This document shows positions 27,537 through 43,417 of a stretch of DNA of 64,000 bases, in pieces. The stretch spans positions 2,542,001 through 2,606,000 of the forward strand of contig NZ_CP113343.1 of NCBI RefSeq assembly GCF_026683955.1. Reading direction: 5' to 3'. This DNA comes from Arthrobacter sp. MMS18-M83. Lineage in GTDB: Bacteria > Actinomycetota > Actinomycetes > Actinomycetales > Micrococcaceae. Position 1 is the first letter of the stretch. Each line of letters begins with the position of its first letter. The notes below the pieces were generated by a model that ran no database searches, was not told where the DNA came from, and saw only the letters and a list, made by a program, of their open reading frames with translations. The translations under genes were made by a program, and so were the position numbers.

Positions 27537-27600
27537 TTTCCTTCCATACCCGACGCGGGGGAACCGCCGGGCAACTAACCCTTTTCTCATGGAGGATCCA

Positions 27601-28893: not shown

Positions 28894-28936
28894 TGCGTCT
28901 GCTGTCTCGAGCCGGATCCGCACCGGGAGGTAGGCC

Positions 28937-29920
28937 ATGACGGCACTCGCGTCGGAGAAAGCGGACACCACCGGAACGCACAACCGCAAGCCGACGACGG
29001 CGCGCGCGTCCCGCCGTCGTTCGCTAAGCAAGCGCGGCCTGGAACTGTGGCTCTACCTGGCTCCGGCTTTCATCGTCCTGATCGCGCTGCTGGGATACCC
29101 GATTTTCCAGCTGATAAACGTTTCGTTGTACGACTACCGCCAAGCCCAAGTCAGCGGCAAGGCACCTCTTCAGTTCACGGGCCTGGAGAACTATCAGAAG
29201 CTCGTCGCCGATCCTGAGTTCTGGTCTGTTTTAGGCAACACCGTGCTGTTCGCGGGCGCTTGCGTTGTCCTGACTCTGCTGGTGGGAACATCGCTGGCAG
29301 TACTGGCTACGCGGCTGCGGCCCTGGGTCCGGACTGCGCTATTCGTGGTCTCGCTCGGTGCTTGGGCCACCCCGGCCGTCACCGGCAGCGCCGTGTGGCT
29401 TTTCCTCTTCGACCCCACCCTGGGGCTCGTCAACAAGGTGCTCGTCTCCGTGGGCTTGACGCAGTTCAACGGCTACTCCTGGACCTACGACAAGTGGTCA
29501 GCCTTTGGGCTGGTGGCCAGCGAAGTGGTGTGGTGTTCGTTCCCGTTCGTGCTCGTGACGGTCTACGCCGGCATCCAGGCGATCTCCATCGAAGTGATCG
29601 AGGCGGCCCGGCTGGACGGTGCTTCCATGCCCCGGATCGCGCGCAGCATCATGCTTCCCATGCTGCGGCCGATTGTTATCGTGGTGACCATCCAGTCGAT
29701 TATCTGGAACTTCAAGATCTTTTCGCAGATCTACATCATGACCAACGGCGGCGGCATCGCTGGACAGAACCTCGTGCTGAACGTCTACGGCTACCAGCAG
29801 GCATTCGCGGCCAGCCTTTACGGGCTCGGTTCGGCCCTCGGTGTCATCATGACCGCCCTGCTGATGATCATCACCCTGGTGTACCTCCGCATCCTTAAGA
29901 GAACGGGAGAAGCCCTGTGA
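28937..29920 (+). CDS. Carbohydrate ABC transporter permease (MalF-like)
   Basis: A 327-residue permease with a basic, low-complexity N-terminus and six helices. The EAA loop for ATPase docking is EVIEAARLDGASMPRIARSI. Pairs with the MalG-like permease whose GTG start overlaps its stop (GTGA). No ATPase gene lies in the operon; in many actinobacteria a shared MsiK-type ATPase elsewhere energises such importers. Confidence 0.93.
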   Translation: MTALASEKADTTGTHNRKPTTARASRRRSLSKRGLELWLYLAPAFIVLIALLGYPIFQLINVSLYDYRQAQVSGKAPLQFTGLENYQKLVADPEFWSVLGNTVLFAGACVVLTLLVGTSLAVLATRLRPWVRTALFVVSLGAWATPAVTGSAVWLFLFDPTLGLVNKVLVSVGLTQFNGYSWTYDKWSAFGLVASEVVWCSFPFVLVTVYAGIQAISIEVIEAARLDGASMPRIARSIMLPMLRPIVIVVTIQSIIWNFKIFSQIYIMTNGGGIAGQNLVLNVYGYQQAFAASLYGLGSALGVIMTALLMIITLVYLRILKRTGEAL

Positions 29921-30825
29921 CCGCCGTCAACGTTTCACTCCGCAAGAACCGGCCTGCGCCGGAAGCTCCGCAAAAGTTCCGCAAAGGCGGACGACGCCGT
30001 TGGGGCGCCGACGCTGGGGCACTCGCCATCGCGCTTCTCGTCGCGTTCCCCCTGTTCTGGATGGTCCTTTCGGCCCTCAAGCCGAAGACAGCACTCGATG
30101 CCGGCGACGCGGCACCGTTCACCCTCGAACCGTCGTTCGATTCCTTCATGCGGGTCCTCTCGGTGAACAATTTTGGCCGGTATTTCCTCAACAGTGTGAT
30201 TGTGGCGGTTGTAGTCGTCATCATTTCGACGGTGCTGGCTTTCCTGGCGTCCGTGGCGCTGACCCGTTACGAATTCAAAATGCGCACCAAGCTCCTGATC
30301 GTGGTCCTGGTGTCCCAGATGGTGCCGGTGGAGGCGCTGACGATTCCGCTGTTCTTCCTGCTCCGCAACGCGGGCGAGGCGATACCGCTGGTGGGCCTGA
30401 ACCAGCTCGGCTCCCTGGTGTTGGTGCACGTCGGGTTCAGCATCCCGTTCGCGATCTGGATGCTTCGTGGCTTTGTGGCAGCCGTGCCGGTGGAGCTTGA
30501 GGAAGCAGCGCGTCTGGACGGGGCAAGTGGCTTCCGTTTTGTCCGCTCAGTGCTTTTCCCGCTTGTGGCACCCGGCGTGGTGGCGTGCTCGGTGTTCTCC
30601 TTCATCTCAACGTGGAATGACTTCCTGTTCGCGAAGACGTTCATCATTTCCGCCCAGGAGAACCAGACCCTGCCCATGGCATTGTTGACCTTCTTCAAGC
30701 CTGACCAGAACGATTGGGGTGCCATTATGGCCGGTTCCGTGATCATGACCATTCCGGTGCTGATCTTCTTCATCGCAGTGCAGCGAAAGCTCGTGTCCGG
30801 CCTGGCCGGGGCGGTGAAAGGATGA
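29917..30825 (+). CDS. Carbohydrate ABC transporter permease (MalG-like)
   Basis: A 302-residue permease with six helices and the EAA loop VELEEAARLDGASGFRFVRS. The mid-protein VALTRYEFKMRTKLLIVVL and FSFISTWNDFLFAKTFI segments are typical of the MalG/UgpE class. It overlaps both neighbours: GTGA with the first permease and ATGA with the hexosaminidase gene, showing tight coupling. Confidence 0.93.
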   Translation: MTAVNVSLRKNRPAPEAPQKFRKGGRRRWGADAGALAIALLVAFPLFWMVLSALKPKTALDAGDAAPFTLEPSFDSFMRVLSVNNFGRYFLNSVIVAVVVVIISTVLAFLASVALTRYEFKMRTKLLIVVLVSQMVPVEALTIPLFFLLRNAGEAIPLVGLNQLGSLVLVHVGFSIPFAIWMLRGFVAAVPVELEEAARLDGASGFRFVRSVLFPLVAPGVVACSVFSFISTWNDFLFAKTFIISAQENQTLPMALLTFFKPDQNDWGAIMAGSVIMTIPVLIFFIAVQRKLVSGLAGAVKG

Positions 30826-32435
30826 GCGCCGCAGATCTGCTGGTTCCCGTTCCGTGCTTAATTGAGTCCGGCGACGGCTTCCTGGAACTGGACTCGGCCA
30901 CCACCTTGGCCGCCGATCCGGAGCTCAGCAGCGCGCGCCGCTGGCTGGCCCACACCCTCGGCGCGTCCACCGGCTGGGACCTGTTTCCGGCCACCGCGGC
31001 TCATGCGCGCATCAGCCTTCGGCTTGATCCGGAGCTCGAGGCTGAGGCCTATCGCCTGGAGGTGGGCGCCGCCGTCGTGATTCACTCGGGTGGCCCGGCA
31101 GGAGCCTTCTATGCAGCGCAGACGCTCCTGCAGATGTTGGGACCCGCGGCCTTTCGGCAAGCGCCGGTTGCGGAAGTTGGAGGCGGATGGCAGGTTCCCA
31201 AGGTGTCCATCCAAGACCAGCCCCGCTTCGGCTACCGCGGCGTGATGCTGGACGTGGCCCGGCATTTCATGCCCAAGGACAATCTGCTGCGGTTCATCGA
31301 GGTGATGGCCATGCACAAACTCAATGTCCTGCACCTGCACCTCACGGACGACCAAGGCTGGCGGATCCAGATCAACCGCTACCCGAGGCTCACCGAGACC
31401 GGGGCGTGGCGACGGGAGTCCTCGCTGGGCTCGTGGCGGGCCGGGATTTTCGACGGGCTTCCGCACGGAGGTTTCTACAGCCAGGACGATCTCCGCGAAG
31501 TGGTCGCGTTCGCTGCGGAACGGCACATCACCGTCATTCCGGAGATCGATGTTCCGGGACACAGCCAGGCCGCCATCGCCGCCTACCCGGAACTTGGCAC
31601 GGGCGCGGATGTAGAGGTTTGGACCCGCTGGGGAATCAACGAGACCGTGCTGGAAGTCTCGGACACGTCGCTGGAGTTCTACCGCAATGTGCTCGACGAA
31701 GTAGTGGAGATTTTCCCCTCCCGCTGGATCAGCTTGGGCGGGGACGAAGTTCCGCCGGCCCAGTGGCAATCCAGTGCGGAGGCGCAGGCCAAAGCCGCCG
31801 AACTCGGCTTGCCGGACGTTTCGGGACTGCACAGCTGGTTTGTCGGGCAGCTGGCAAAGCACCTTGACGGGCATGGGCGCGCGACTTCTGTGTGGGACGA
31901 AATCGGCGATGGCGAACTCCCCGACGGCGCGCTGGTTGCCTCCTGGCGTGGCTATGAAGGGGGCCTCAAGGCGCTCGAGAGTGGCTACGACGTGGTCATG
32001 TGCCCCGAGCACAAGCTGTACCTCGACCACCGTCAGGCCGACGGCGACGGCGAGCCCGTGCCGGTAGGGTTCGTCATTACGCTGAAGGACGTCTACGAAT
32101 TCGAACCGCTGCCAGCCGGTGCGCATGACGCGTATCCCGGCCGGCTCCTCGGGGCGCAGGCCAACATCTGGACCGAACACCTGGATTCGCCGCGGCGGGT
32201 CCACTTCGCCGCATTTCCGCGGCTGAGTGCCGTCGCGGAGGTGCTCTGGTCCCGGCCCGAGGACCGGGACTACGATGGTTTCCTGACCAGGCTCGAAGGG
32301 GGCCATCTGGAACGGCTGGAAGCCATGGGAGTGGAATTTCGGCCGCTGTCAGGGCCTAAACCCTGGCAGTTGAGGCCCGGCGTGGTTGGCTGGAAACGCG
32401 ATTACGACGCTGAGCAGCGCAGCGCCGCTGAATAG
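30822..32435 (+). CDS. Beta-N-acetylhexosaminidase (GH20)
   Basis: A 537-residue glycoside hydrolase removing terminal GlcNAc (or GalNAc). An N-terminal GH20b domain (about 1-130) precedes the TIM barrel beginning PRFGYRGVMLDVARHF. LHLHLTDDQGWRIQI and WISLGGDEVP, holding the Asp-Glu pair that assists the substrate acetamido group, are intact, as is the late WTEHLDSP-type motif. No signal peptide, so it acts in the cytosol on imported oligosaccharides. ATG 30822 overlaps the permease stop. Substrate may be chito-oligosaccharide; inferred from the importer operon. Confidence 0.93.
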   Translation: MSAADLLVPVPCLIESGDGFLELDSATTLAADPELSSARRWLAHTLGASTGWDLFPATAAHARISLRLDPELEAEAYRLEVGAAVVIHSGGPAGAFYAAQTLLQMLGPAAFRQAPVAEVGGGWQVPKVSIQDQPRFGYRGVMLDVARHFMPKDNLLRFIEVMAMHKLNVLHLHLTDDQGWRIQINRYPRLTETGAWRRESSLGSWRAGIFDGLPHGGFYSQDDLREVVAFAAERHITVIPEIDVPGHSQAAIAAYPELGTGADVEVWTRWGINETVLEVSDTSLEFYRNVLDEVVEIFPSRWISLGGDEVPPAQWQSSAEAQAKAAELGLPDVSGLHSWFVGQLAKHLDGHGRATSVWDEIGDGELPDGALVASWRGYEGGLKALESGYDVVMCPEHKLYLDHRQADGDGEPVPVGFVITLKDVYEFEPLPAGAHDAYPGRLLGAQANIWTEHLDSPRRVHFAAFPRLSAVAEVLWSRPEDRDYDGFLTRLEGGHLERLEAMGVEFRPLSGPKPWQLRPGVVGWKRDYDAEQRSAAE

Positions 32436-32442
32436 GACACAC

Positions 32443-33258
32443 GTGGGTACAGAAGGCACGGAGGCCCGGAACTCCTCGGCCTCGTTGCGGAAGGCGCTGG
32501 CTTTGCTGGCGGTGGTGGCGGAGCATCCGGTGAGCGCGGACGGACTCGCCTTGGTGGAGCTGACCAAGCTCTCCGGGCTCAATAAGAGCACAGTGCTGCG
32601 CTTGGCAGCGCCTTTGTTGGAGGAAAACCTGCTGGAACGCGATGCGGAGAGCGGGCGCTTCCGGCTGGGTCACGGTTGCCTCCGACTGGGGCAGGCCTAT
32701 TTGGATCGGTTGGATTTGCGCAGCGTCGCCAACGCCGAACTCCGGGTGCTGATGCGGGCCACTGAAAGCACCTGCCACCTTGTGGTCCTGTCCGGTCACG
32801 ACGTGGTCTACCTCGACAAGGTGGAAGATGAGGCAACGGTTCGCATGGCATCGAGGGTCGGCGCGACCATGCCGGCCTACCGTACCGCGGTAGGCAAAGC
32901 CATGCTGGCGTTCAGTCCGGAGGAAGTGGTGGCGTCAATCCTGGCCAGCGAGCTGGTTCCGATCACCGACAGAACCATCACGGATCCCGAGCAGCTGCGG
33001 GCGGAATTCGCCGCAATCCGTCGCCGGGGCTATGCAATTGATGACCGCGAGAACGAGCCCGAGGTCCGGTGCGTCGCCGCCCCGATCTTCGGCCACGACG
33101 ACCACGTGGTTGCCGCCGTCAGCGTCTCCTCGTTGTCGTCCCGGATGACCGCCAAACGCGTCCGTGAAGTAGGTCCTATGGCCGCCGAAACCAGTCTCCG
33201 CATCTCGGCCAAGCTGGGATCGCGGCGGGCCAACGCCAAACTCGCGAAGCTGGCTTAG
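32443..33258 (+). CDS. IclR family transcriptional regulator of the sugar/hexosaminidase operon
   Basis: A 271-residue regulator: N-terminal winged HTH (about 13-80: SLRKALALLAVVAEHP, ELTKLSGLNKSTVLRLAAPL) and C-terminal ligand-binding domain (VVYLDKVEDEATVRMASRVG, RTAVGKAMLAF, AIDDRENEPEVRCVAAPIF). GTG at 32443, 7 bp after the GH20 stop, is preferred to an ATG inside the GH20 gene. It probably controls the operon through sites at 27463-27536. Confidence 0.9.
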   Translation: MGTEGTEARNSSASLRKALALLAVVAEHPVSADGLALVELTKLSGLNKSTVLRLAAPLLEENLLERDAESGRFRLGHGCLRLGQAYLDRLDLRSVANAELRVLMRATESTCHLVVLSGHDVVYLDKVEDEATVRMASRVGATMPAYRTAVGKAMLAFSPEEVVASILASELVPITDRTITDPEQLRAEFAAIRRRGYAIDDRENEPEVRCVAAPIFGHDDHVVAAVSVSSLSSRMTAKRVREVGPMAAETSLRISAKLGSRRANAKLAKLA

Positions 33259-33260
33259 GG

Positions 33261-33761
33261 GTGCGGATGGAAGAGCCAATGAACGACGCCGGGGCTGGGG
33301 TCGGGGCGGGCGGCGCGGCTGACGCGGGCAGCGCAGCGGCCGGGGCCGGGCAGGGCGGCGCAGCGTCCGCCTACTTCCGCAGCAAGCTGCGGTTCGAGAT
33401 CGACGTCATGGACGTCGCGGATGCGGCTCCCGGTAGCTTCGTGCTGGTTGATACGCGCCGTCAGTCTTCGTGGGACCACGGGCATATCCCCGGTGCCGTG
33501 CACCTGCCGACGGCCCAGATCCCTGCGCGCGCGGCCACCCTGATCCCGGCCGGGACATCAGTGGTGGTCTATTCCTGGGGACCGGGGTGCAACGGGAGTA
33601 CCTTCGCGGCCCTGGCCTTCGCCGAGCTCGGGTACCCGGTACGCGAAATGATCGGCGGCATTGAGTATTGGGCCCGGAACGGTCTTCCGGTGGAGACAGT
33701 TGGCGGGATTGTTGTTGCCGCGGCGGACGGATTGGTGACGGCGCACCAGCCGGAGGTGTAG
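33261..33761 (+). CDS. Rhodanese-like domain protein
   Basis: A 166-residue protein whose first 35 residues are Gly/Ala-rich low complexity. The rhodanese fold follows: FVLVDTRRQSSWDHGHIPGAVHLPT, and the active-site loop SWGPGCNGSTFAALAFAELGY with a Cys at the sulfurtransferase position. GTG start 2 bp after the IclR stop, so it is the last gene of that operon; its link to sugar uptake is unclear. Confidence 0.85.
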   Translation: MRMEEPMNDAGAGVGAGGAADAGSAAAGAGQGGAASAYFRSKLRFEIDVMDVADAAPGSFVLVDTRRQSSWDHGHIPGAVHLPTAQIPARAATLIPAGTSVVVYSWGPGCNGSTFAALAFAELGYPVREMIGGIEYWARNGLPVETVGGIVVAAADGLVTAHQPEV

Positions 33762-33850: not shown

Positions 33851-34255
33851 TTAGGCCGTTACCGCCAGCGCGTCGATTTCCACGAGCATGACTTCGTGCG
33901 GGAGGTCGACGAACACGGTGGTGCGGCTCGGCAGTTGGCCGCTGGGGACGTTTTCGGTGATGAACTCGCCATAGACATCGTTCATGGCCGCGAAGTCGTC
34001 GCGCGTGGTGAGGTAGACGCGGAACATGATGACGTCCTCCACTGAGGAGCCGCCTGCCTCGAGGATCGCCTTGACGTTTTCCAAGGTGCGGCGGGTCTGG
34101 ACGCGGACGTCACCCTCGCCGATGTACTGGTTGGTGGCAGGGTCCATCGGGCCCTGCCCGGATACCTGGAACATGCCACCCTTCTGGATGCCCTGGGAAA
34201 ATACATGCGCCGGGGCAGGAGCATTTTCGGTCAGTACTACGGTCTTTTCACTCAT
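33851..34255 (-). CDS. RidA family (YjgF/YER057c/UK114) enamine/imine deaminase
   Basis: A 134-residue trimeric deaminase. Family marks: HVFSQGIQKGGMFQVSGQGP, the QTRRTLENVKAILEAGGSSVEDVI core, and a C-terminal Arg-containing LPSRTTVFVDLP strand (the Arg that binds the carboxylate). It hydrolyses reactive 2-aminoacrylate or similar enamines released by PLP dehydratases. The divergent operon encodes such a PLP enzyme, so RidA may clear its intermediate. Start overlaps the IclR stop (ATGA). Confidence 0.92.
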   Translation of the reverse strand: MSEKTVVLTENAPAPAHVFSQGIQKGGMFQVSGQGPMDPATNQYIGEGDVRVQTRRTLENVKAILEAGGSSVEDVIMFRVYLTTRDDFAAMNDVYGEFITENVPSGQLPSRTTVFVDLPHEVMLVEIDALAVTA

Positions 34256-35013
34256 GCTGAGTTCCTTTCATGGCTGATCCAGCCGAGGTCGCGGGAGATG
34301 GCCTCGGTGCTGGCTTTGAGGTCGGGCAGCAGCTCAAGCAATCCTTCATAGCTGAGCATCACCACCGGTACCGAACAAGAGGCTGCGGCCACGACGGCGC
34401 CAGTTGCGTCGCGAATGGGGGTCGCGATGCAGTGCACGAAGGCTTCGTGCTCGGCGTTGTCGTGGGCCCAGCCCTGGATCCTGACCTGCTCCAGTTCGGC
34501 CAGCAGGGCCTTCGGTGAGGTCAGGGTGGTGTCGGTAATTCTTGTGTAGTCCAAGCTCGCGGCGATCCGTTCCTGCCGGCTGCGTGGCATGTCGGCAAGA
34601 AGGACTTTTGCGACGGCGGCCGAATGCAAGGACGCGGTCAGGCCGATCCGGGAGTACATGCGCACGGGATGGTGGGACTCGAACTTGTCGATGTACACCA
34701 CGTCATTTCCCTCGAACGCGGCAAGGTGCACGGTGTGCCCGGTCTTGCCGTTCAGCTCGGCCAGGTACGGGTGCGCCACTTTGCGGATGTCCCGCTGCTC
34801 CAACGCGAGCGAGGACAGCTCAAACAACTTGGAGCCGAGCATGAATCGTTGGTCCTCATCGCGGACCACGAAGCGTTTTTCCTCCATGGCATGCAGGAGG
34901 CGCATCACCGTGGTCTTGTGGACGGATGCTTTGGACGCGAGCTCGTCGAGGGTGGCCGGTTTGGCCGCGAGTTCCGCAAGCAGGTCAAGGGCCCGCATCA
35001 AGCTTTGGCTCAT
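34252..35013 (-). CDS. IclR family regulator of the sugar-acid operons
   Basis: A 253-residue IclR protein: winged HTH MSQSLMRALDLLAELAA ... VHKTTVMRLLHAMEE, then effector domain with GNDVVYIDKFESHHPVRMYS and AFVHCIATPIRD. ATG 35013 chosen because it overlaps the kinase stop (ATGA) and begins directly at the HTH. It is the obvious regulator of the divergent operons 33851-36041 and 36273-41342 through the palindrome at 36192. Confidence 0.92.
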   Translation of the reverse strand: MSQSLMRALDLLAELAAKPATLDELASKASVHKTTVMRLLHAMEEKRFVVRDEDQRFMLGSKLFELSSLALEQRDIRKVAHPYLAELNGKTGHTVHLAAFEGNDVVYIDKFESHHPVRMYSRIGLTASLHSAAVAKVLLADMPRSRQERIAASLDYTRITDTTLTSPKALLAELEQVRIQGWAHDNAEHEAFVHCIATPIRDATGAVVAAASCSVPVVMLSYEGLLELLPDLKASTEAISRDLGWISHERNSA

Positions 35014-36041
35014 GGCGCTGTGCTCCGATCTTGAACGCTCCGGTTCTGGCTGCTGAAGTGCCCCCTGGAAACGCGGATCGCAGCCCATTCGGCGTCGGTG
35101 GAATCGAGGATGGCCGAAAGCAGGGCGGAGTCAGGAAGGGGGCCGCGATCGCCGTGCACAGTGAGGGTGCAGGCTGCAGCGACGTGACCGCGGCGGAGGC
35201 TCGCCTTCTGCTCGAGTCCGAACAGCATGCCACTCAGGTAGCCGGCAGCAAAAGAATCGCCCGCGCCCACCGGCTCGAGCACGTCCACGGACAAGGCGGG
35301 CACTTCCGAGCGAGAGCCGTCCCGTTCCAGGGCGATGGCGCTGATGGCTTCGTTCTTGATAACGACGACGGCGGGATCGGGCATGAGGTGCCGAAGCTCA
35401 GTTTCGTCTGTGGTGCCGAAGGCGTGCTCGGCCTCGTCCTTGCCCACCAGCACGATGTCGGCAAGATTGGCTAGCCGGCGCAGCACCGAGCGGTCCTGCC
35501 CGGCCCAGAGTGCGGCGCGCCAATTGACATCGAAGCTGATGAGTCGGCCGTGCCTCGGTGCGGCGAGGATGGCTTCCATCAGATCGAGGCATTCCGCCGA
35601 GAGCGCCGCAGTGATGCCGCTTAGGTGGATGAGCGGGGCTTCTTCCAACAAGCGCTCGACGGCGGGATTCGACAGGGTGCCCGGGCCCATGGCCGACGCC
35701 GCGGAACCTTGGCGGTAGTACAGAACTGAACTGCCGCCGTCGGGAGCTGATTCCTGGGCGGGGACCTTGACGTACAGGCCGGTGGGCCGCCCCGGGTCAA
35801 CTTCGACGCCGGCGATGCCTACGCCGTGGCTGCTGAGCTCGTCCAGGATCCGGGTGCCGAATCCGTCCCTGCCAACCCTGCCCACCCAGTGCGAGTCCAG
35901 GCCCATGGCAGCCAGGCCCATGGCAACGTTCGATTCGGCGCCGCCGATGCCGCAATGTAGCTCGGTGGCTTGGTGCAGCGGGACGGCGTTCACCGGGGTG
36001 AGCATGGCCATCGTTTCGCCCACACATACAGCTGAAAGCAT
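35010..36041 (-). CDS. PfkB-family sugar kinase, probable 2-keto-3-deoxygluconate kinase
   Basis: A 343-residue ribokinase-fold enzyme. The N-terminal substrate signature GIGGAESNVAMGLAAMG, the SFDVNWRAALW strand and the catalytic PfkB motif EPVGAGDSFAAGYLSG (Asp base in GAGDS) are intact. The GGAESNVA form and the neighbouring KDPG aldolase favour KDG kinase, making KDPG from KDG and ATP. The last 25 residues are a polar extension. First gene of the leftward operon kinase-IclR-RidA. Confidence 0.88.
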   Translation of the reverse strand: MLSAVCVGETMAMLTPVNAVPLHQATELHCGIGGAESNVAMGLAAMGLDSHWVGRVGRDGFGTRILDELSSHGVGIAGVEVDPGRPTGLYVKVPAQESAPDGGSSVLYYRQGSAASAMGPGTLSNPAVERLLEEAPLIHLSGITAALSAECLDLMEAILAAPRHGRLISFDVNWRAALWAGQDRSVLRRLANLADIVLVGKDEAEHAFGTTDETELRHLMPDPAVVVIKNEAISAIALERDGSRSEVPALSVDVLEPVGAGDSFAAGYLSGMLFGLEQKASLRRGHVAAACTLTVHGDRGPLPDSALLSAILDSTDAEWAAIRVSRGHFSSQNRSVQDRSTAP

Positions 36042-36191
36042 GAAACTCCCGCACTCCCTCTGCCGCTTCTAACGGCACTCGACACCCCCACGTAGAAAGG
36101 GATTTCTGTGGCCGGATCGGGCTGCCGGGACCTGCCACGGCCTTGACTCCCAATCCTGCACCATGTTAGACATATCACCAACAGCTTTGCA

Positions 36192-36220
36192 AACTGCGTT
36201 GCAAAATACGCAACGCAGTT
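36192..36220. promoter_or_regulatory. Large palindromic operator between the two sugar-acid operons
   Basis: Arms AACTGCGTTGC (36192-36202) and GCAACGCAGTT (36210-36220) are perfectly complementary with a 7-nt spacer; an extra half-site TTTGCAAA overlaps the left edge. It sits in the 231-bp divergent region between the kinase and the D-serine-dehydratase-like gene. The size and GTTGC/GCAAC half-sites suit the IclR protein encoded in the left operon, which could then control both directions. Confidence 0.7.
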
Positions 36221-36272
36221 GAGGCTTGCGGAAAAGCTTGCGAAAAATGCGCACCGTGAAGGGATCTAACTG

Positions 36273-37625
36273 GTGAACACTTCCACGTCCGGAGCAGGGA
36301 TAGAGGCCGGAGCCGGGACAGAGTCTGGGGCAATTGCAACCGACGCCGTGGCCCGTCTGGCAGATGTCCGGCTCGATTGGCGGCACAAAGCAGTGCCCGC
36401 CACGGCCAACGGCACCAGCCACCGCGAGTTCCTCGCGGCAGGCCCCACCCTTGCGGACCTCCAGACGCCGTTGCTCACCCTCGACGCCGGGGCACTCCGC
36501 GGCAATGCCGATCGCTTGGCCACATGGTGTGCTGAACGCGGCGTGCTGCTGGCTCCGCACGGCAAGACCACCATGGCACCGCAGTTGTGGGCCGAACAGC
36601 TCAACCGCGGCGCTTGGGGGATCACCGTGGCGAACTTCGCGCAGCTCCGCGTTGCCCACGAATTCGGCGTGCGGCGGCTACAGTTGGCCAATAGCCTCAC
36701 CGATCCGCATGCCATCGAATGGGTTGCCGCGACCGCCAGTCCGGATCAGCCGATCCTGTCCTGGGTGGATTCCACCGTCACCGTAGATGTCATCGGACGC
36801 ACACTGGAAGCGGCCGGAAGCGACGCCGTCCTGGATGTGCTGGTTGAGCTAGGCGGAATCGGCGGACGCACGGGTGCGCGGGGCGTGGAGGCGGCGCTCG
36901 ACGTCGCCCGGTCCGTGGCCGCTTCACCTCACTTGCGGCTGGTCGGCGTCAGCGGCTACGAAGGATCGCTCGCCCACACGGCCGCCGCCGACAGCCTCGC
37001 CGCCGTCCGCGGCTACTTGGGCCAGATGCGGGAGCTCCACAAGAGTCTGCTCAGCGAAAGTCTCTACGGGTCCGACGCCGTCATCCTCACCGCGGGTGGC
37101 AGCGCCTACTTCGACGACGTCGTCGACGTACTCTCGCCGTGCGTCAGCGGCGGCACGCAAGACGGTCCCCGCGTGGAACTCATGATCCGCAGCGGCGCGT
37201 ACATCATCCACGATGACGGCTTCTACCGCGGCATCTCGCCGTTTTCCCGCGACGGCGGCGAACCGTTCAAGGCAGGGATGCACGGCTGGGCGCGAGTCGT
37301 ATCCCAGCCCGAGCCCGGCCTGGCCATCCTCGACGCCGGCAAACGCGACTTACCCGTGGACGAGGGCCTGCCCCGTCCGCAGCTGATCGGACCCGCCCTC
37401 GGCGGTCCGATGCAGCCGCTCGCCGATGCCGAGATCACCGCGGTCAACGATCAGCACTGCTTCATGACGTTCGACGCCGGCACCACCACTGTGCGGCCCG
37501 GCGATGTCGTGCGCCTGGGACTTTCGCATCCGTGCACCGCCTTCGACAAGTGGACGCTCATCCCGGTGCTGGCGGACACGGACGGTGACCAAACCGTCGT
37601 CGACCTCATCCACACCTTCTTCTAG
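36273..37625 (+). CDS. PLP-dependent D-serine dehydratase / D-threonine aldolase-family enzyme (possible D-glucosaminate dehydratase)
   Basis: A 450-residue fold-type III PLP enzyme (alanine-racemase-like barrel). The PLP Lys is K98 in LLAPHGKTTMAPQL. A C-terminal metal-site segment SHPCTAFDKW holds His419-x-Cys421, the Zn-ligand pair known from eukaryotic D-serine dehydratase, so beta-elimination (dehydration) is more likely than aldol cleavage. The first 30 residues are low complexity; GTG start at 36273. Neighbours (D-aminoacylase, KDG kinase, KDPG aldolase) suggest that the true substrate is D-glucosaminate, giving KDG and ammonia. D-serine is the main alternative. Confidence 0.8.
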   Translation: MNTSTSGAGIEAGAGTESGAIATDAVARLADVRLDWRHKAVPATANGTSHREFLAAGPTLADLQTPLLTLDAGALRGNADRLATWCAERGVLLAPHGKTTMAPQLWAEQLNRGAWGITVANFAQLRVAHEFGVRRLQLANSLTDPHAIEWVAATASPDQPILSWVDSTVTVDVIGRTLEAAGSDAVLDVLVELGGIGGRTGARGVEAALDVARSVAASPHLRLVGVSGYEGSLAHTAAADSLAAVRGYLGQMRELHKSLLSESLYGSDAVILTAGGSAYFDDVVDVLSPCVSGGTQDGPRVELMIRSGAYIIHDDGFYRGISPFSRDGGEPFKAGMHGWARVVSQPEPGLAILDAGKRDLPVDEGLPRPQLIGPALGGPMQPLADAEITAVNDQHCFMTFDAGTTTVRPGDVVRLGLSHPCTAFDKWTLIPVLADTDGDQTVVDLIHTFF

Positions 37626-37635
37626 GACACGTGCC

Positions 37636-39303
37636 ATGAAGACACTCATCAGCAACGCCGTCCTGGTGGACGGAACCGGAGCGGACCGTCGCCTGGCGGA
37701 CGTCCTGCTGGACGGTGGGGTGATCGCGGTCGTCGCCGACGTCGGATCCCTCACCGCCAGCGGAACAGGCGCCGAGCGGATCATCGACGCCACAGGACTC
37801 GTCCTGAGCCCCGGATTCATCGATATGCACGCCCATTCGGACCTGCAGCTACTGGTCAACAAGGACCACTACGCCAAGCTCAGCCAAGGCGTCACCACCG
37901 AACTCCTGGGCCAGGACGGGCTGTCCTACGCTCCGGTAGACGACGCCACCCTCGCCGGAGTCCGCGAAAAGATCGCCGGTTGGAACGATAATCCGCAGGA
38001 TTTCGACTGGAGCTGGCGAACGGTGGGCGAGTACCTTGACCGCCTCGATCGCGCAGACCACAAAGGCCGGATCGCCACCAACACCGCCTACCTCGTGCCG
38101 CAAGGAACTGTCCGCGCCCTAGTGATGGGTTTCGCCGAAGGGGACCCGACGCCGGAGCAGCAGGAACGGATGCAGGAGGTTGTCCGCACCGCCATGGAGG
38201 AAGGCGCCGTGGGGATGTCCTCCGGGCTGACCTACACGCCCGGCATGTACGCCCGCACCGAGGAGTTGGCAGGACTTTGCCGCACCGTGGGGGAATTGGG
38301 CGGGTTCTACGCCCCGCACCACCGTTCCTACGGCAAGGGCGCGCTCGGAGCCTACGCCGAGATGATCGAGCTGAGCCGGACTACCGGCTGCGCACTGCAC
38401 CTGTCCCACGCCACCATGAACTTCGCCGAAAACAAGGGCCGTGCGGGCGAGCTGCTGGAGCTGATCGACTCAGCCCTCGACGCCGGCGCCGACATCACGC
38501 TCGACACCTACCCCTACCTCCCCGGAGCCACCACCCTTTCGGCCATCCTGCCCAGCTGGGCATCCTCCGGCGGCACCGAGGCCACGCTGGCCCGGCTGGC
38601 CGACCCCGAAACCAGGGCGAAAATCCGCGAGAGCGTGGAGATCTACGGCTCCGACGGCTGCCATGGAGTGGTTGCGGAGTGGCACACCCTCGAGATCAGC
38701 GGCGTCCAGAATCCCGCGCTCGCCGGCCATGTGGGCAAGACGATCGCTGCGATCGCCGAGGAAACGGAACAAGAGCCGTTCAACGTGTTCGTGGGGATCC
38801 TCCAGGAAGACCGCCTGGGCACCGGGATCCTGCAGCACGTCGGCCACGAAGAAAACGTGCAGGCCATCATGGTCCACCGGGCCCACACCGGCGGCAGCGA
38901 CGGTCTTTTGGTTGGGGCGAAGCCGCACCCCCGCGCTTGGGGAACCTTTCCCCGCTACCTGGGCCACTACAGCCGCGACTTGGGCTTGCTGACGCTGGAA
39001 GACATGGTCCACCACTTGAGCGGACGCCCCGCCGCGCGGCTCAAGCTCGACCGCCGCGGCCTGATCCGCGAAGGCTACGCGGCCGACGTCGTCCTCTTCG
39101 ATCCGCAGACCATCCGTGACGAAGCCACTTTTGAAAATCCCCGCCAAGCCGCCACCGGCATCCATTACGTGTTCGTCAACGGGACGGCAGCGATCGACGG
39201 CGGGAAGCCCACCGGCGCCCGCGCCGGCCGAGCCCTGCGTCGCAGCCCCGACGGACGCGCCCGAGTAGCTCCAGAAGAAGGTATCGAATCGCATGACTCC
39301 TGA
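37636..39303 (+). CDS. N-acyl-D-amino-acid deacylase (D-aminoacylase) family amidohydrolase
   Basis: A 555-residue amidohydrolase-superfamily enzyme. The first metal motif is FIDMHAHSDLQL; further family segments are VGMSSGLTYTPGMYA, GGFYAPHHRSYG, and the late MVHRAHTGGSDGLLVGAKPHP. Start ATG 37636, 10 bp after the preceding gene. The family removes N-acyl groups from D-amino acids; in this operon it may deacetylate N-acetyl-D-glucosaminate. It overlaps the KDPG aldolase gene by 11 bp. Confidence 0.88.
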   Translation: MKTLISNAVLVDGTGADRRLADVLLDGGVIAVVADVGSLTASGTGAERIIDATGLVLSPGFIDMHAHSDLQLLVNKDHYAKLSQGVTTELLGQDGLSYAPVDDATLAGVREKIAGWNDNPQDFDWSWRTVGEYLDRLDRADHKGRIATNTAYLVPQGTVRALVMGFAEGDPTPEQQERMQEVVRTAMEEGAVGMSSGLTYTPGMYARTEELAGLCRTVGELGGFYAPHHRSYGKGALGAYAEMIELSRTTGCALHLSHATMNFAENKGRAGELLELIDSALDAGADITLDTYPYLPGATTLSAILPSWASSGGTEATLARLADPETRAKIRESVEIYGSDGCHGVVAEWHTLEISGVQNPALAGHVGKTIAAIAEETEQEPFNVFVGILQEDRLGTGILQHVGHEENVQAIMVHRAHTGGSDGLLVGAKPHPRAWGTFPRYLGHYSRDLGLLTLEDMVHHLSGRPAARLKLDRRGLIREGYAADVVLFDPQTIRDEATFENPRQAATGIHYVFVNGTAAIDGGKPTGARAGRALRRSPDGRARVAPEEGIESHDS

Positions 39304-39928
39304 AGAATTCGTCCAGCAGCTTGAAGCCGACCGCGCCCTCGCCGTCGTACGGGCGCCGTTCATCCCCGACGCCGCCGAGCTCTGCCGCGCACTGGCCGAC
39401 GGCGGCATCCGCAGCGTCGAACTGACGTTCACGACGCCGGACGTGCTAAGCCATGTGCGACGGGCGGCGGAGACCGCCGCCCAGCACGGCGCCGCCGTCG
39501 GCATCGGCACTGTCATGACGGCCGAGCAGGCTAAGGCAGCCATCGACGCCGGCGCCCAGTTCCTGGTGACGCCCGGCCTTCGTCCGGAGGTGGCCGCAGT
39601 GGCCGTGGCGGCCGGTATTCCCTTCAGCTTGGGCGCCATGACGCCCACGGAAGTTGCGCAGGCCCTCGATCTCGGTTCCGCCGCGGTCAAGATCTTCCCG
39701 GCCAGGCAGCTCGGCCCGGCCTACTTGAAGGATCTCCAGGGACCGTACCCCGGCATTCGGCTGCTTCCCTCCGGCGGGATCGATGCGTCGAACGCCAAGA
39801 GCTATCTCGACGCCGGTGCAGCAGCGGTCTGCTGCGGAACCAGCGTTGTCCCTCCTGCCGCCGTGGCCTCGGGCGAGTGGGCAGACATCTCCGCCAGGGC
39901 CTCCGCCTTCACCGCCACCCTGACGTAG
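39293..39928 (+). CDS. KDPG/KHG aldolase (2-dehydro-3-deoxy-phosphogluconate aldolase)
   Basis: A 211-residue class I aldolase, splitting KDPG to pyruvate and glyceraldehyde-3-phosphate. The catalytic Glu43 is in SVELTFTTP, and the Schiff-base Lys133 in AAVKIFPARQLGP; LLPSGGIDASNA marks the phosphate site. Full family length. It completes the chain from the PfkB kinase encoded in the divergent operon. Confidence 0.93.
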   Translation: MTPEEFVQQLEADRALAVVRAPFIPDAAELCRALADGGIRSVELTFTTPDVLSHVRRAAETAAQHGAAVGIGTVMTAEQAKAAIDAGAQFLVTPGLRPEVAAVAVAAGIPFSLGAMTPTEVAQALDLGSAAVKIFPARQLGPAYLKDLQGPYPGIRLLPSGGIDASNAKSYLDAGAAAVCCGTSVVPPAAVASGEWADISARASAFTATLT

Positions 39929-39950
39929 GAATCCCCAGAAAGTAACCTCC

Positions 39951-41342
39951 ATGAATGAATTCCTGAACTGGCTGCGGCACGATACAGCCGGCCTGCTACT
40001 CCTGGCAGGTGTGGGCATTGCCCTCCTGCTGTTTCTGATTATCAAAGTCAAGGTCGAACCGTTCATCGCCCTGGTGGGTACCAGCGTGCTCGTGGCGCTG
40101 GTGGGCGGAGTGAGCATCGACGCCCTTGTCGGCTCGCCCATCAAGAGCGGGGATGCCCTCATTGAGAAAGGCTTCGCCGGGATCCTCGGACACATCACCC
40201 TGATCATCGGCCTGGGTACCGTGCTCGGCGCCATCCTGGAACGTTCCGGTGGCGCGGAGGTCCTCCTGGGGAAGCTCGTGAAGCTCTTCGGTGAAAAGGG
40301 CACCCCCGTGGCGATGGGTGTCACCGGCTTCGTCCTTGGTATCCCGGTCTTCTTCGACATCGGTATCTTCGTGCTCGCGCCCCTCGTGTACGTCGCGGCC
40401 GTGCGAGGCGGGAAGTCCCTCATCTTGTACGCCCTGCCGCTCCTTGCCGGCCTCTCCGTAACCCACGCCTTCCTGCCGCCGCACCCAGGCCCCGTGGCCG
40501 CGGCCGGACTCTTCCACGTTGAACTTGGCTGGATCATCATCATGGGCTTGGCCTGCGGCATCCCGGCGTGGTTCGCCTCCGGCATCCTCTGGGGCCGGTG
40601 GATCGGCAAGCGCGTGCAGATCGCCGTTCCGGAGGACCGCGTGATCCCGGAGGCCGAGGAGGCCGTGGGCCACGAGCCGCCAATGAGCCTTGTTGCGCTG
40701 GCCATTGGCCTGCCGATGGTCCTGATCCTCGGCGCCACCTTCGGCAACGTCTTCCTGCCCGCCGGTGGATTCCGCGACACGTTGGTGTTCTTTGGCAACC
40801 CGGCCATCGCGCTGACCGTTGCTGTGGGACTGTCCATGTGGCTGTTGGGAATTCGCCGGGGCATGAGTGCCAAGGAGCTCTCCGAACTCAGCTCTGCTTC
40901 ACTGAAGCCGGTCGGCATGATCTTGCTTGTTGTTGGAGCGGGTGCATTTTTCGGCGCGGTCCTCTCGGCAACCGGAGTAGGCAACGCGGTAGCTGACACC
41001 TTGTCCAAGGCGGGACTCCCGGTCATCGTGTCCGCCTACGTGATCGCCTGCGGCATGCGCATTGCGCAGGGCTCAGCCACAGTGGCGATCGTCACCACCG
41101 GCGGGATCCTAGCCCCCGCGCTCACCGCCGGACATTATTCGCAGCCCCAATTGGCGCTGATTGTCATGGCGATCTCTTCCGGCTCCATCATCGCCAGCCA
41201 CGTGAACGACGGCGGTTTCTGGATCATCTCCAAGTACTTCAACATGTCCGTGAAGGACACCTTGAAGACCTGGACCGTGCTGGAAACCGTGCTCTCCGTG
41301 GTGGGCTTCGGCATGGCGGCCTTGCTGTACCAGTTCGTCTAG
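39951..41342 (+). CDS. GntP family sugar-acid / D-serine permease
   Basis: A 463-residue permease with about twelve helices. The GntP signature is SVTHAFLPPHPGPVAAAGLF. The family imports gluconate, fructuronate and D-serine. Last gene of the rightward operon, 22 bp after the aldolase. In context it would import the compound broken down by the operon, possibly N-acetyl-D-glucosaminate or gluconate-like acids (inference). Followed by a palindrome likely to end transcription. Confidence 0.92.
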   Translation: MNEFLNWLRHDTAGLLLLAGVGIALLLFLIIKVKVEPFIALVGTSVLVALVGGVSIDALVGSPIKSGDALIEKGFAGILGHITLIIGLGTVLGAILERSGGAEVLLGKLVKLFGEKGTPVAMGVTGFVLGIPVFFDIGIFVLAPLVYVAAVRGGKSLILYALPLLAGLSVTHAFLPPHPGPVAAAGLFHVELGWIIIMGLACGIPAWFASGILWGRWIGKRVQIAVPEDRVIPEAEEAVGHEPPMSLVALAIGLPMVLILGATFGNVFLPAGGFRDTLVFFGNPAIALTVAVGLSMWLLGIRRGMSAKELSELSSASLKPVGMILLVVGAGAFFGAVLSATGVGNAVADTLSKAGLPVIVSAYVIACGMRIAQGSATVAIVTTGGILAPALTAGHYSQPQLALIVMAISSGSIIASHVNDGGFWIISKYFNMSVKDTLKTWTVLETVLSVVGFGMAALLYQFV

Positions 41343-41909: not shown

Positions 41910-41975
41910 GAAGGTTTCCTAGACCGGTTCATAAAACCGTTGCGGCTCCCGCGTGGGGATGGTTGCATGGGGTGC

Positions 41976-43121
41976 ATGGCTACCGCAGAGAGTTATGTCT
42001 TGGCGATCGGGACCAAAAAAGGACTGTGGCTGGCACGCAGTTCAGACCGCAAGGAATGGTCCCTTTCCGGTCCGCACTTCCTCATGAGCGAGATCCCCAG
42101 CATCGGGATCGATACGCGCGGGGACAAGCCCCGGATCATGGTGGGCGTGCGCTCCGAACACTGGGGGCCCACCGTGGCCCACTCCGACGACCTGGGCGCC
42201 ACCTGGACCGAGCCCGAGCAGGGCGCCATCAAATTCCCAGAGGGCACCGATGCCGCACTGGAGCGGATTTGGCAGATCTACCCGGACTCTGCGTCCCGGC
42301 CAGGAGTCGTCTGGGCCGGTTGCGAACCGATCTCCGTCTGGAAATCCACCGACGGCGGCGAGCACTTCGAGCTGAACCGTGGCCTGTGGAATCATCCGCA
42401 CCGCAGCGAATGGGGAGCGGGTTACGGTGGCGCTGCCGCCCACTCGATCGTGGTCGACCCCTCCGGGGAGAACGTCCACGTTGCCATGAGCACCGGCGGG
42501 GTTTACAGATCGCTCGACGGCGGAACCTCCTGGGAAGCCCGCAACAAGGGAATCTCGGCCTACTTCATGCCGGATCCCAACCCGGAGTTCGGCCAGTGCG
42601 TGCACAAGATCGCCGCGGATGCCGCCGTCGAGGGTCGTCTGTATGCGCAGAACCACCATGGCGTGTACCGCACGGATGACAACGGAGAGAATTGGATTTC
42701 CATCGCGGATGGGCTGCCCGCCGATTTCGGCTTCGTGATGCTCACCCACCCGCGCCGCGAAGGTACCGCGTGGGTTGTCCCGATCAAGGCAGATAGCGAG
42801 CGGATTCCGCCGGATGGCCATCTCGCGGTGCACCGCACGGACGACGCAGGCGGGACCTGGAAGCGTTTGGATGTGGGACTCCCGGACCACGAATACAATG
42901 CTGTGCTCCGTGACGCGGCCGCGGTGGATTCAGCTGAACCTGCCGGGGTGTACTTCGGAACACGCGGCGGTTCGGTCTACGCCAGCGCTGACGAGGGCGA
43001 GTCCTTCATTGAAGTTGCCTCGCATCTGCCCGATGTGTTGTGCGTCCGGGCTGCCGTTGTCTCCGGTGATCTGTCCGCCGAATTGGCCGCTGCCTCTGCG
43101 GCATCCGGTCTGCCGGCGTAG
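41976..43121 (+). CDS. BNR/Asp-box beta-propeller (sialidase-like fold) protein
   Basis: A 381-residue cytosolic beta-propeller without signal peptide. Six Asp-box-like motifs are readable (HSDDLGATWTEP, KSTDGGEHFEL, RSLDGGTSWEA, RTDDNGENWIS, RTDDAGGTWKR, SADEGESFIE), each at the turn of a blade. Arg triad and Tyr of true sialidases are not evident, so enzymatic sialidase function is not supported. ATG 41976 chosen (MATAESYVLAIGTKKG). A ThiS/MoaD-like gene follows after 8 bp. Confidence 0.85.
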   Translation: MATAESYVLAIGTKKGLWLARSSDRKEWSLSGPHFLMSEIPSIGIDTRGDKPRIMVGVRSEHWGPTVAHSDDLGATWTEPEQGAIKFPEGTDAALERIWQIYPDSASRPGVVWAGCEPISVWKSTDGGEHFELNRGLWNHPHRSEWGAGYGGAAAHSIVVDPSGENVHVAMSTGGVYRSLDGGTSWEARNKGISAYFMPDPNPEFGQCVHKIAADAAVEGRLYAQNHHGVYRTDDNGENWISIADGLPADFGFVMLTHPRREGTAWVVPIKADSERIPPDGHLAVHRTDDAGGTWKRLDVGLPDHEYNAVLRDAAAVDSAEPAGVYFGTRGGSVYASADEGESFIEVASHLPDVLCVRAAVVSGDLSAELAAASAASGLPA

Positions 43122-43129
43122 GACGGGTC

Positions 43130-43417
43130 TTGTCCGACATCACCGTGGTTTTGCCCAGCGTCCTCCAGCCACTCGCCGGCGGGCAGTCCTACCTGACTAC
43201 GCCCGCCGACGGAGCTGTGACCGTGGAAAGCTTGCTTGACGCTGTGACCGGGGACTACCCGGTGCTTGCCCGGAGGCTCCGGGACGAGACCGGGTCCCTC
43301 CGCCGCTACGTGAATATTTACGTGAATGGCGAGGAGGTCCGGCGCCTGAAAGGTCTGGATACTGAGGTTGCGGCCGGCCAGGAGGTCTTGATCATCCAGT
43401 CCGTGGCTGGCGGCTGA
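43130..43417 (+). CDS. ThiS/MoaD-family ubiquitin-like protein
   Basis: A 95-residue beta-grasp protein ending VAGG, the di-glycine tail that ThiS/MoaD proteins use to carry sulfur as thiocarboxylate after activation by an E1-like enzyme. VNIYVNGEEVRRLKGLDTEV and GQEVLIIQSVAGG match the family C-terminal half. TTG start 8 bp after the BNR gene, so the two are likely one operon. No E1-like (ThiF/MoeB) gene is in the window; the target is unknown. Confidence 0.88.
   Translation: MSDITVVLPSVLQPLAGGQSYLTTPADGAVTVESLLDAVTGDYPVLARRLRDETGSLRRYVNIYVNGEEVRRLKGLDTEVAAGQEVLIIQSVAGG

Follow-up and report, generated by a model that had tools for sequence, protein, structure and literature searches.

A candidate N-acetyl-D-glucosaminate catabolic cassette in Arthrobacter sp. 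MMS18-M83 and its actinobacterial relatives

The question raised by positions 33851-41342 of a 64,000-nucleotide stretch of the genome of Arthrobacter sp. MMS18-M83 (the stretch is the window and the strain the host in what follows) is what its enzymes degrade. Two divergent gene groups there encode a deacylase, a pyridoxal phosphate (PLP) enzyme and a set of sugar acid proteins. An earlier note on this DNA had proposed that they break down N-acetyl-D-glucosaminate (GlcNAc1A), pointing to a marine oxidative chitin pathway of the same logic. That pathway is the ong pathway of Pseudoalteromonas, in which the deacetylase OngB, the PLP deaminase OngC and the kinase KdgK degrade GlcNAc1A, as reported from RNA sequencing, gene deletions and enzyme assay (Jiang et al. 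2022, PMC9537276). Drawing on gene content, protein families, conserved linkage, a gene fusion, a shared operator and active-site residues, we consider it probable that the Arthrobacter locus is a cassette for GlcNAc1A catabolism. It would represent the ong pathway in an actinobacterial version, in which the deacetylase has a separate derivation and the regulator and transporter are different ones.

Gene content and proposed route

Comparison of the open reading frame (ORF) list with Pfam and NCBIfam places every gene where the earlier note had put it and in the family it had named. The genes for the PfkB kinase, the IclR regulator and RidA run head to tail on the minus strand with overlapping stop and start codons; the IclR start at 35013 is set by its overlap with the PfkB stop, and the longest ORF reaches 35088. 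On the plus strand come the genes for the PLP enzyme, the deacylase, Eda and GntP, in that order; one adjacent pair overlaps, and the others are 10 and 22 bases apart. A divergent promoter region with a palindrome separates the two groups. In the list, KDG is 2-keto-3-deoxygluconate, KDPG its 6-phosphate and KHG 2-keto-4-hydroxyglutarate.

33851-34255, minus strand: RidA/Rid-family protein (PF01042 and TIGR00004 above cut-off), putative OngD counterpart
34252-35013, minus strand: IclR-family regulator (PF01614/PF09339)
35010-36041, minus strand: PfkB kinase (PF00294), predicted KDG kinase
36189-36214, plus strand: three-half-site operator GCAAA-N4-GTTGC-N7-GCAAC in the divergent promoter
36273-37625, plus strand: fold-type III PLP enzyme, predicted OngC-like deaminase/dehydratase (PF14031 D-ser_dehydrat domain; PDB 3gwq, 190 bits)
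37636-39303, plus strand: D-aminoacylase-family deacylase (Amidohydro_3), predicted GlcNAc1A deacetylase of an Asp94/Tyr232/Thr260 subfamily
39293-39928, plus strand: Eda, KDPG/KHG aldolase (TIGR01182, 184.4 bits, cut-off 156.05)
39951-41342, plus strand: GntP-family permease, predicted aldonate importer (TIGR00791, 359.8 bits, cut-off 292.75; DsdX model 192 bits, below its cut-off of 618)

GlcNAc1A is the sugar acid that lytic polysaccharide monooxygenases (LPMOs) leave at an oxidised chitin end, or a product of other oxidases. GntP would take up the free acid, and a neighbouring ATP-binding cassette (ABC) importer with an intracellular GH20 enzyme would release it, together with N-acetylglucosamine (GlcNAc), from imported oligosaccharides. 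The deacylase would then remove acetate to give D-glucosaminate. The PLP enzyme would expel the 3-hydroxyl as water, and RidA would aid hydrolysis of the enamine/imine, yielding KDG and ammonia. The PfkB kinase would convert KDG to KDPG, which Eda would cleave to pyruvate and glyceraldehyde-3-phosphate. IclR is the predicted operator-binding protein, and at the three-half-site operator it would govern both operons. This succession of GlcNAc1A, glucosaminate, KDG and KDPG, which the earlier note had outlined, appears well supported because the enzyme set equals that of the ong pathway, enzyme for enzyme; gene fusions, a shared operator and lactonase, ABC and GH20 neighbours also speak for it.

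The best NCBIfam model for the regulator is KdgR (178 bits, below the cut-off of 275). The PfkB, Eda and GntP proteins together fit a six-carbon 2-keto-3-deoxy acid and not the keto acids formed from D-serine or D-threonine. This bears on the function implied by the database names, D-aminoacylase and D-serine deaminase, according to which the deacylase would free D-serine or D-threonine from N-acyl-D-amino acids, the PLP enzyme would deaminate them and RidA would clear the enamine. OngC is reported also to deaminate D-Ser and D-Thr (PMC9537276), and the window deacylase is closer overall to the D-aminoacylase AfDam (280 bits) than to the OngB protein PpOngB (194 bits). However, such a pathway could do without a kinase of the KDG type, without Eda and without a permease of the gluconate type, and it leaves unexplained both the GH20 fusion and the operator common to eda and lactonase genes described below. 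Moreover, no PLP gene was found adjacent to the actinobacterial deacylases of the Cys type examined (GNCG; L028-L031, L104). We therefore regard degradation of N-acyl-D-amino acids as very unlikely.

Conserved linkage, gene fusion and active-site residues

We examined the conservation of the cassette in the best 80 of 573 confirmed relatives from one scan of named genomes (the named loci). These come from Arthrobacter, Paenarthrobacter, Glutamicibacter, Rhodococcus, Nocardia, Gordonia, Tsukamurella, Pseudonocardia, Amycolatopsis, Kribbella, Streptomyces and other genera. Beside the deacylase gene stand genes for the PLP enzyme (80 loci), RidA (79), IclR (76), PfkB (75), GntP (73), Eda (61) and GH20 (13). 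Because the PLP gene accompanies the deacylase in all 80, the grouping is beyond chance.

Within the host family, Micrococcaceae, a deacylase of at least 69% identity occurs in 16 of 149 genomes (in two pieces in G144), each time with PLP and Eda genes beside it (16/16); among the other genomes of the host genus in this set, 0 of 7 gave a deacylase match at the E-value used. The whole cassette is present in all nine wider regions taken from such deacylase-bearing genomes, with GntP matching at only 33% in L041. In genomes that we call Streptomyces-like, an inferred label based on the arrangement shared with the named Streptomyces locus L187, RidA-IclR-PfkB lies opposite PLP-deacylase in 5/5 wider regions (L089-L093). 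Another lineage of the deacylase, deeply diverged at about 36% identity, is also found beside a PLP gene, and several of its loci have PfkB, Eda and RidA genes. A plasmid record of 1.35 Mb from Arthrobacter sp. StoSoilB13 carries the whole locus (NZ_AP024648.1:155634-163014; 96% covered, 80.5% identity) and is the only near match in the plasmid collection.

In Microbacterium sp. M28 (L099, 100% match) the deacylase and GH20 are joined in one ORF of 1103 residues. Its neighbours are genes for the PLP enzyme, for a regulator and a kinase of the ROK type, and for a protein of the glucosamine-6-phosphate isomerase family. Relatives of fusion length number 257; among the matches listed, PF07969 and PF00728 are both present in 120/120, and nearly all those with names are Microbacterium. 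The fusion thus argues that the deacylase acts on an amino-sugar product.

The most serious rival is that this product is the galacto acid, so that the cassette degrades N-acetyl-D-galactosaminate through 2-keto-3-deoxygalactonate (KDGal) and the kinase and aldolase of that acid. GH20 enzymes can also act on beta-GalNAc, the best NCBIfam model of the kinase is the bifunctional KDG/KDGal kinase (NF040938; 151 bits, below the cut-off of 400), and the deacylase lacks the residues by which OngB would select the gluco configuration. Against this, the aldolase scores above the cut-off of the Eda model but below that of the DgoA-type model PRK09140 (110 bits, cut-off 207), the Microbacterium neighbours are the ROK kinase and glucosamine-6-phosphate isomerase-family genes, and LPMOs are enriched among the genera that have the deacylase. 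On balance the galacto acid seems an unlikely substrate, and GlcNAc1A is the one that we retain.

The PLP enzyme has the residues that the earlier note had picked out, with Lys98 in PHGKTTMAP and the metal site His419-x-Cys421 in SHPCTAFDKW. It is 33% identical (186 bits) to OngC of a Pseudoalteromonas ong cluster, and the two share the motifs PHGKT[T/S]MxP and SHPCxxFDKW, which are absent from the two D-threonine aldolases compared. Its best PDB match, the D-serine deaminase-like protein 3gwq, has the same motifs but scores higher with OngC (398 bits) than with the window enzyme, and in the tree OngC groups with 3gwq beside, not inside, the cassette PLP group. By these sequence comparisons the window enzyme is OngC-like in a broad sense. 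The host genome has a second PLP enzyme far from the cassette (G000:C1:55871-56923, L107; 35% identity), also with an SHPC motif.

For the deacylase, we compared the window protein with PpOngB, whose structure with GlcNAc1A (PDB 9kb1/9kb3) distinguished residues separating it from D-aminoacylases (Wang et al. 2025, PMC12017989). The window deacylase (555 residues, against 489 in PpOngB) is 29% identical to OngB of L006, our reference Pseudoalteromonas ong cluster; the match between that OngB and PpOngB is full-length. An AlphaFold2 model (mean pLDDT 80.1) has the D-aminoacylase-like fold of PpOngB (Foldseek TMt 0.83), and its top nine Foldseek matches are D-aminoacylases and OngB, about equal. 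AfDam (PDB 1m7j), reported to be inactive on GlcNAc1A (PMC12017989), is the best E-value match in both sequence and fold.

In PpOngB numbering, the window deacylase retains His68 and His70 (the HxH), Tyr194, the metal ligands His222 and His252, Tyr285, the catalytic Asp368 and Arg379, and the hydrophobic pocket for the acetyl methyl group (Leu116, Leu370) is kept as Ile/Leu/Val. It differs at Cys97 (Asp), Glu226 (Tyr), Lys254 (Thr) and Ser290-292 (Gly-Ala-Thr), which correspond to D94, Y232, T260 and G297-T299 of the window protein; the metal-Cys and Lys changes also set it apart from AfDam. The metal site is thus not of the subtype V D-aminoacylase pattern, having Asp94 for Cys, with both His and the catalytic Asp422 (window numbering) present.

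The combination Asp97, Tyr226 and Thr/His254 occurs in 55/55 PLP-linked actinobacterial rows, many of them close relatives; the count leaves out L099 (whose row is its GH20 half), L002 and L022 (partial) and L023-L027 (most metal residues lost). Rows in which no PLP gene was found adjacent are Cys/Glu/Lys (L028-L031, L004), Asp/Glu/Lys (L001, L003), Cys/Tyr/Thr (L104) or Asp/Tyr/His (L097, L098, L100, L102, L103), or have lost most of the site (L023-L027). In a quick tree of 47 rows, without bootstrap and without L002, L022, L023-L027 and many close relatives, the Asp/Tyr group forms one clade (SH-aLRT 96) apart from OngB and AfDam (100). Direct orthology to OngB was rejected, both by the differing residues and by an approximately unbiased test against one clade with OngB (p-AU 2.3e-5), a value to be read with caution as the Asp/Tyr group was named only after the tree had been seen. 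On this sequence evidence the window deacylase is a distinct subfamily outside the OngB/D-aminoacylase clade.

Three other groups of deacylase relatives emerged from this comparison. A Klebsiella protein named 'N-acyl-D-amino-acid deacylase' (PDB 9g5m/9gv8) has the OngB residue at all 21 compared positions but 348 and may therefore deacetylate GlcNAc1A. In L024-L027, L047 and L048, an Eda-like aldolase with about 62% identity to that of the window accompanies D-aminoacylase-like proteins in which most of the metal ligands are gone, which suggests that these proteins are non-hydrolytic relatives. A haloarchaeal deacylase from a Natrinema plasmid (L001) has Asp at the metal position, retains Glu226/Lys254 and lies near genes for a PIG-L deacetylase, an aminotransferase and GH20; such haloarchaeal relatives and the text available from a paper on soda-lake archaea (PMC12343721) indicate a different, predicted route.

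A shared operator and a possible link to chitin oxidation

The palindrome that the earlier note had seen between the operons is real (36192-36220, AACTGCGTTG/CAACGCAGTT) but forms only part of a conserved three-half-site operator of general form GCAAY-N4-RTTGC-N7-GCAAY. The palindrome pattern GCGTTGCRNNNYGCAACGC was discarded, with 0 matches in the window and the wrong spacing; TTGCAA-N6-TTGCAA, and then the three-half-site form, were used instead. The former has one perfect copy in the host genome, at the cassette, and its one-mismatch copies are not above control. All 12 core bases of the operator are matched in 85 of 99 promoter regions (which include repeats of the same genomes, L186 being skipped for length) and in 0 of 4950 shuffles, which preserved single-base content only. 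Exact operators lie near the PLP start in 76 of the 80 named loci, a recount that includes six Amycolatopsis loci (L161-163, L168, L170, L188); L133, L144, L183 and L191 are those without, and the reversed pattern occurs 0 times in 1.36 Mb. When one mismatch was allowed, the search of 14 genomes failed in several of them to outdo the reversed control, and we therefore relied on exact sites only. In the part available of a paper on IclR motifs (PMC8222616), the GTT-11-AAC motif group fits the right half of the operator, and this regulon was not found there.

We extended the search for exact operators to 32 Streptomyces-like genomes (31 of one genus and one other), chosen for having the deacylase. 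The cassette carries one in 30 of them, a number that includes one site confirmed separately on its contig, with no reversed pattern in any genome, and 18 genomes contain a further 25. Fifteen of the 25 precede an eda gene by an estimated 18-98 bases, a position that fits because the KDPG route needs eda; no eda was found beside the cassette in 12/12 of the 15 such genomes whose cassette was examined. Five others precede a PF10282-type lactonase (assigned by Pfam in three cases and by similarity, at 95% and 70% identity, in two) with a twin-arginine (Tat)-type signal recognised by eye. In Amycolatopsis, a PF10282-type lactonase gene directly follows GntP in 10 of 11 loci, nine of which also have ABC and GH20 genes. 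The lactonase can be linked to the pathway because the lactone made by an LPMO needs a lactonase to become the acid. In L258, L269 and L272, Streptomyces-like loci, an aldehyde dehydrogenase-type gene near an exact operator has its own IclR gene.

These observations lead us to favour, with less assurance than the cassette itself, a broader proposal: that Actinomycetota have a regulon under IclR control that is dedicated to C1-oxidised chitin and covers its entire fate. In it a Tat-exported lactonase would open the LPMO-made lactone, ABC/GH20 and GntP would import the acid, and a second, independently derived GlcNAc1A deacetylase family, with Asp for the metal Cys, would burn it in concert with RidA, Eda, a KDG kinase and a deaminase resembling OngC.

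Across the class, an LPMO is found in 102 of 345 genomes: in 45 of the 53 with a deacylase of at least 49% identity and in 57 of the 292 others. By genus the figures are 8/14 against 28/112 (p = 0.017). The 49% threshold was our own choice and left out G344 (48%) and the weaker G455, G425, G261, G383, G301 and G382. In the host family, LPMOs occur in 4/16 cassette genomes and 2/133 others (p = 0.0012), a link inseparable from kinship because the comparison by genus gives p = 0.18 (2/9 against 1/23). Three genomes of one genus (G097, G114, G144) have an AA10 LPMO about 18-40 kb from the cassette.

The host genome itself yielded 0 AA10 LPMO candidates at E 0.001 (the control search matched in 1/14 genomes) and no GH18 match at the same threshold; a GH19 search gave no match, and neither did its control. 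Because it has no AA10 LPMO or GH18 match, the host probably scavenges sugar acids that other organisms produce. The source proposed in the earlier note, oxidised chitin, is favoured by the LPMO and lactonase associations of relatives and not by the host's own genome; for a scavenger, that source is inferred.

The same absence favours a substrate without a link to chitin oxidation, such as another 2-acylamino-2-deoxy sugar acid or lactone that carries a different acyl group or is made by a dehydrogenase from free GlcNAc. No LPMO match is present in 12 of the 16 cassette genomes of the host family, and with Lys254 replaced the substrate may bind differently. The retained acetyl-methyl pocket and the lactonase and LPMO associations in Streptomyces-like genomes argue the other way, and we judge such a substrate highly improbable.

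The GH20/ABC operon that the earlier note had placed next to the locus is present at 27589-32435, followed by two further genes:

27589-28893, plus strand: ABC importer, sugar-binding protein (PF01547/PF13416)
28937-29920, plus strand: ABC importer permease 1 (PF00528)
29917-30825, plus strand: ABC importer permease 2 (from the ORF list; homologue with GH20 in 12/80 named loci)
30822-32435, plus strand: GH20 beta-N-acetylhexosaminidase (PF00728, 362 bits on a longer ORF; start overlaps the permease stop)
32386-33258, plus strand: second IclR regulator beside GH20 (start uncertain; ORF overlaps the GH20 end)
33261-33761, plus strand: rhodanese-like protein (PF00581)

The GH20 enzyme would be cytoplasmic, no signal peptide being seen by eye. 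Rhodanese-like genes are repeatedly found close to the cassette, with deacylases of either lineage (6/80 named loci; L042, L053, L055, L112-L116, L126). On the other side, at 41940-43417 of the window, lie genes for a BNR-repeat protein and then a ThiS-like protein; a BNR gene is near the cassette in 5/80 named loci.

Several observations count against a GlcNAc1A cassette tied to chitin oxidation, beginning with the host's missing LPMO and GH18 matches and the by-genus result in its family. The kinase falls below the KDG-kinase cut-offs. The deacylase lacks the OngB choices Ser290/291/292, Gln298, Glu226, Ala193, Ala256 and Gly348, and also Lys254, which anchors the substrate carboxylate in OngB. 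No PLP gene was found near the deacylases of L097, L098 and L100 (49-52% identity). The sugar-binding protein is nearest in the PDB to acarbose/maltose-type and other sugar binders, with the chito-oligosaccharide binder 7ehp weaker. The window operator has A for Y in its first half-site, and no clear copy was seen at the GH20/ABC operon, so the idea that the operator also governs that operon was dropped. The one exact Y-form match elsewhere in the host genome lies inside possible ORFs; in G144 an exact operator lies elsewhere inside an open frame, and the cassette copy has one mismatch. Three of the 25 further operators are near aldehyde dehydrogenase-type genes (assigned by Pfam in one case and by ORF length or neighbour in the other two) and two have no gene assignment; one of these two is at the end of a contig, next to a GntR gene of the kind also present at a lactonase locus. 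In the host's single full-length PF10282 protein no Tat-type signal was recognised by eye, and the stretch examined around its gene contains no operator.

Streptomyces and other actinobacteria are major degraders of chitin in soil. If our reading is true, the cassette supplies a missing soil route for oxidised chitin, with its regulon and operator named. It would also add a subfamily of deacetylases whose metal site is altered, and would tie a lactonase to chitin oxidation, and the database names D-aminoacylase and D-serine deaminase would need correction.

Comparison with the marine ong pathway

The ong pathway is reported only in Gammaproteobacteria and one Achromobacter; its RidA protein, OngD, is required for growth in a role described as unknown, and a putative KdgA is added in some genera (PMC9537276). 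A search of open-licence literature found no report of this pathway in Actinobacteria among the titles and abstract openings listed, and the main texts of PMC12017989 and PMC9537276 do not mention Actinobacteria, Streptomyces or Arthrobacter. A paper on Antarctic Arthrobacter (PMC13106269) cites the marine work, and OngB, the deaminase and glucosaminate are not mentioned in its accessible text. An Aeromonas paper states, in the part available, that the GlcNAc1A route could not be confirmed in its strains (PMC11653859).

The published rule for an ong cluster is at least four co-occurring genes above 30% identity to strain ACAM 620. Compared with a Pseudoalteromonas stand-in rather than ACAM 620 itself, the window locus misses it, with the PLP enzyme at 33%, RidA at 32% (over 104 aligned positions), GH20 at 31%, the deacylase at 29% and the kinase at 24%; RidA and the kinase are matches at family level only. 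Because the sequences fall below the cut-offs that define the marine pathway, the proposed actinobacterial regulon was probably overlooked earlier.

The two systems differ in their control and transport, with the RpiR regulator OngR and the SSS transporter OngIT in the marine clusters against IclR with a three-half-site operator and GntP in the window. The window locus is actinobacterial, its deacylase is not an OngB and it has no TonB receptors; its host is without an LPMO match, and in relatives a lactonase gene adjoins the cassette or follows a copy of its operator. Shared with the clusters of Pseudoalteromonas prydzensis and other Gammaproteobacteria are a deacetylase, an OngC-type PLP deaminase, RidA and a KDG kinase, a KDPG aldolase in some clusters, GH20 nearby and the predicted order of the chemistry.

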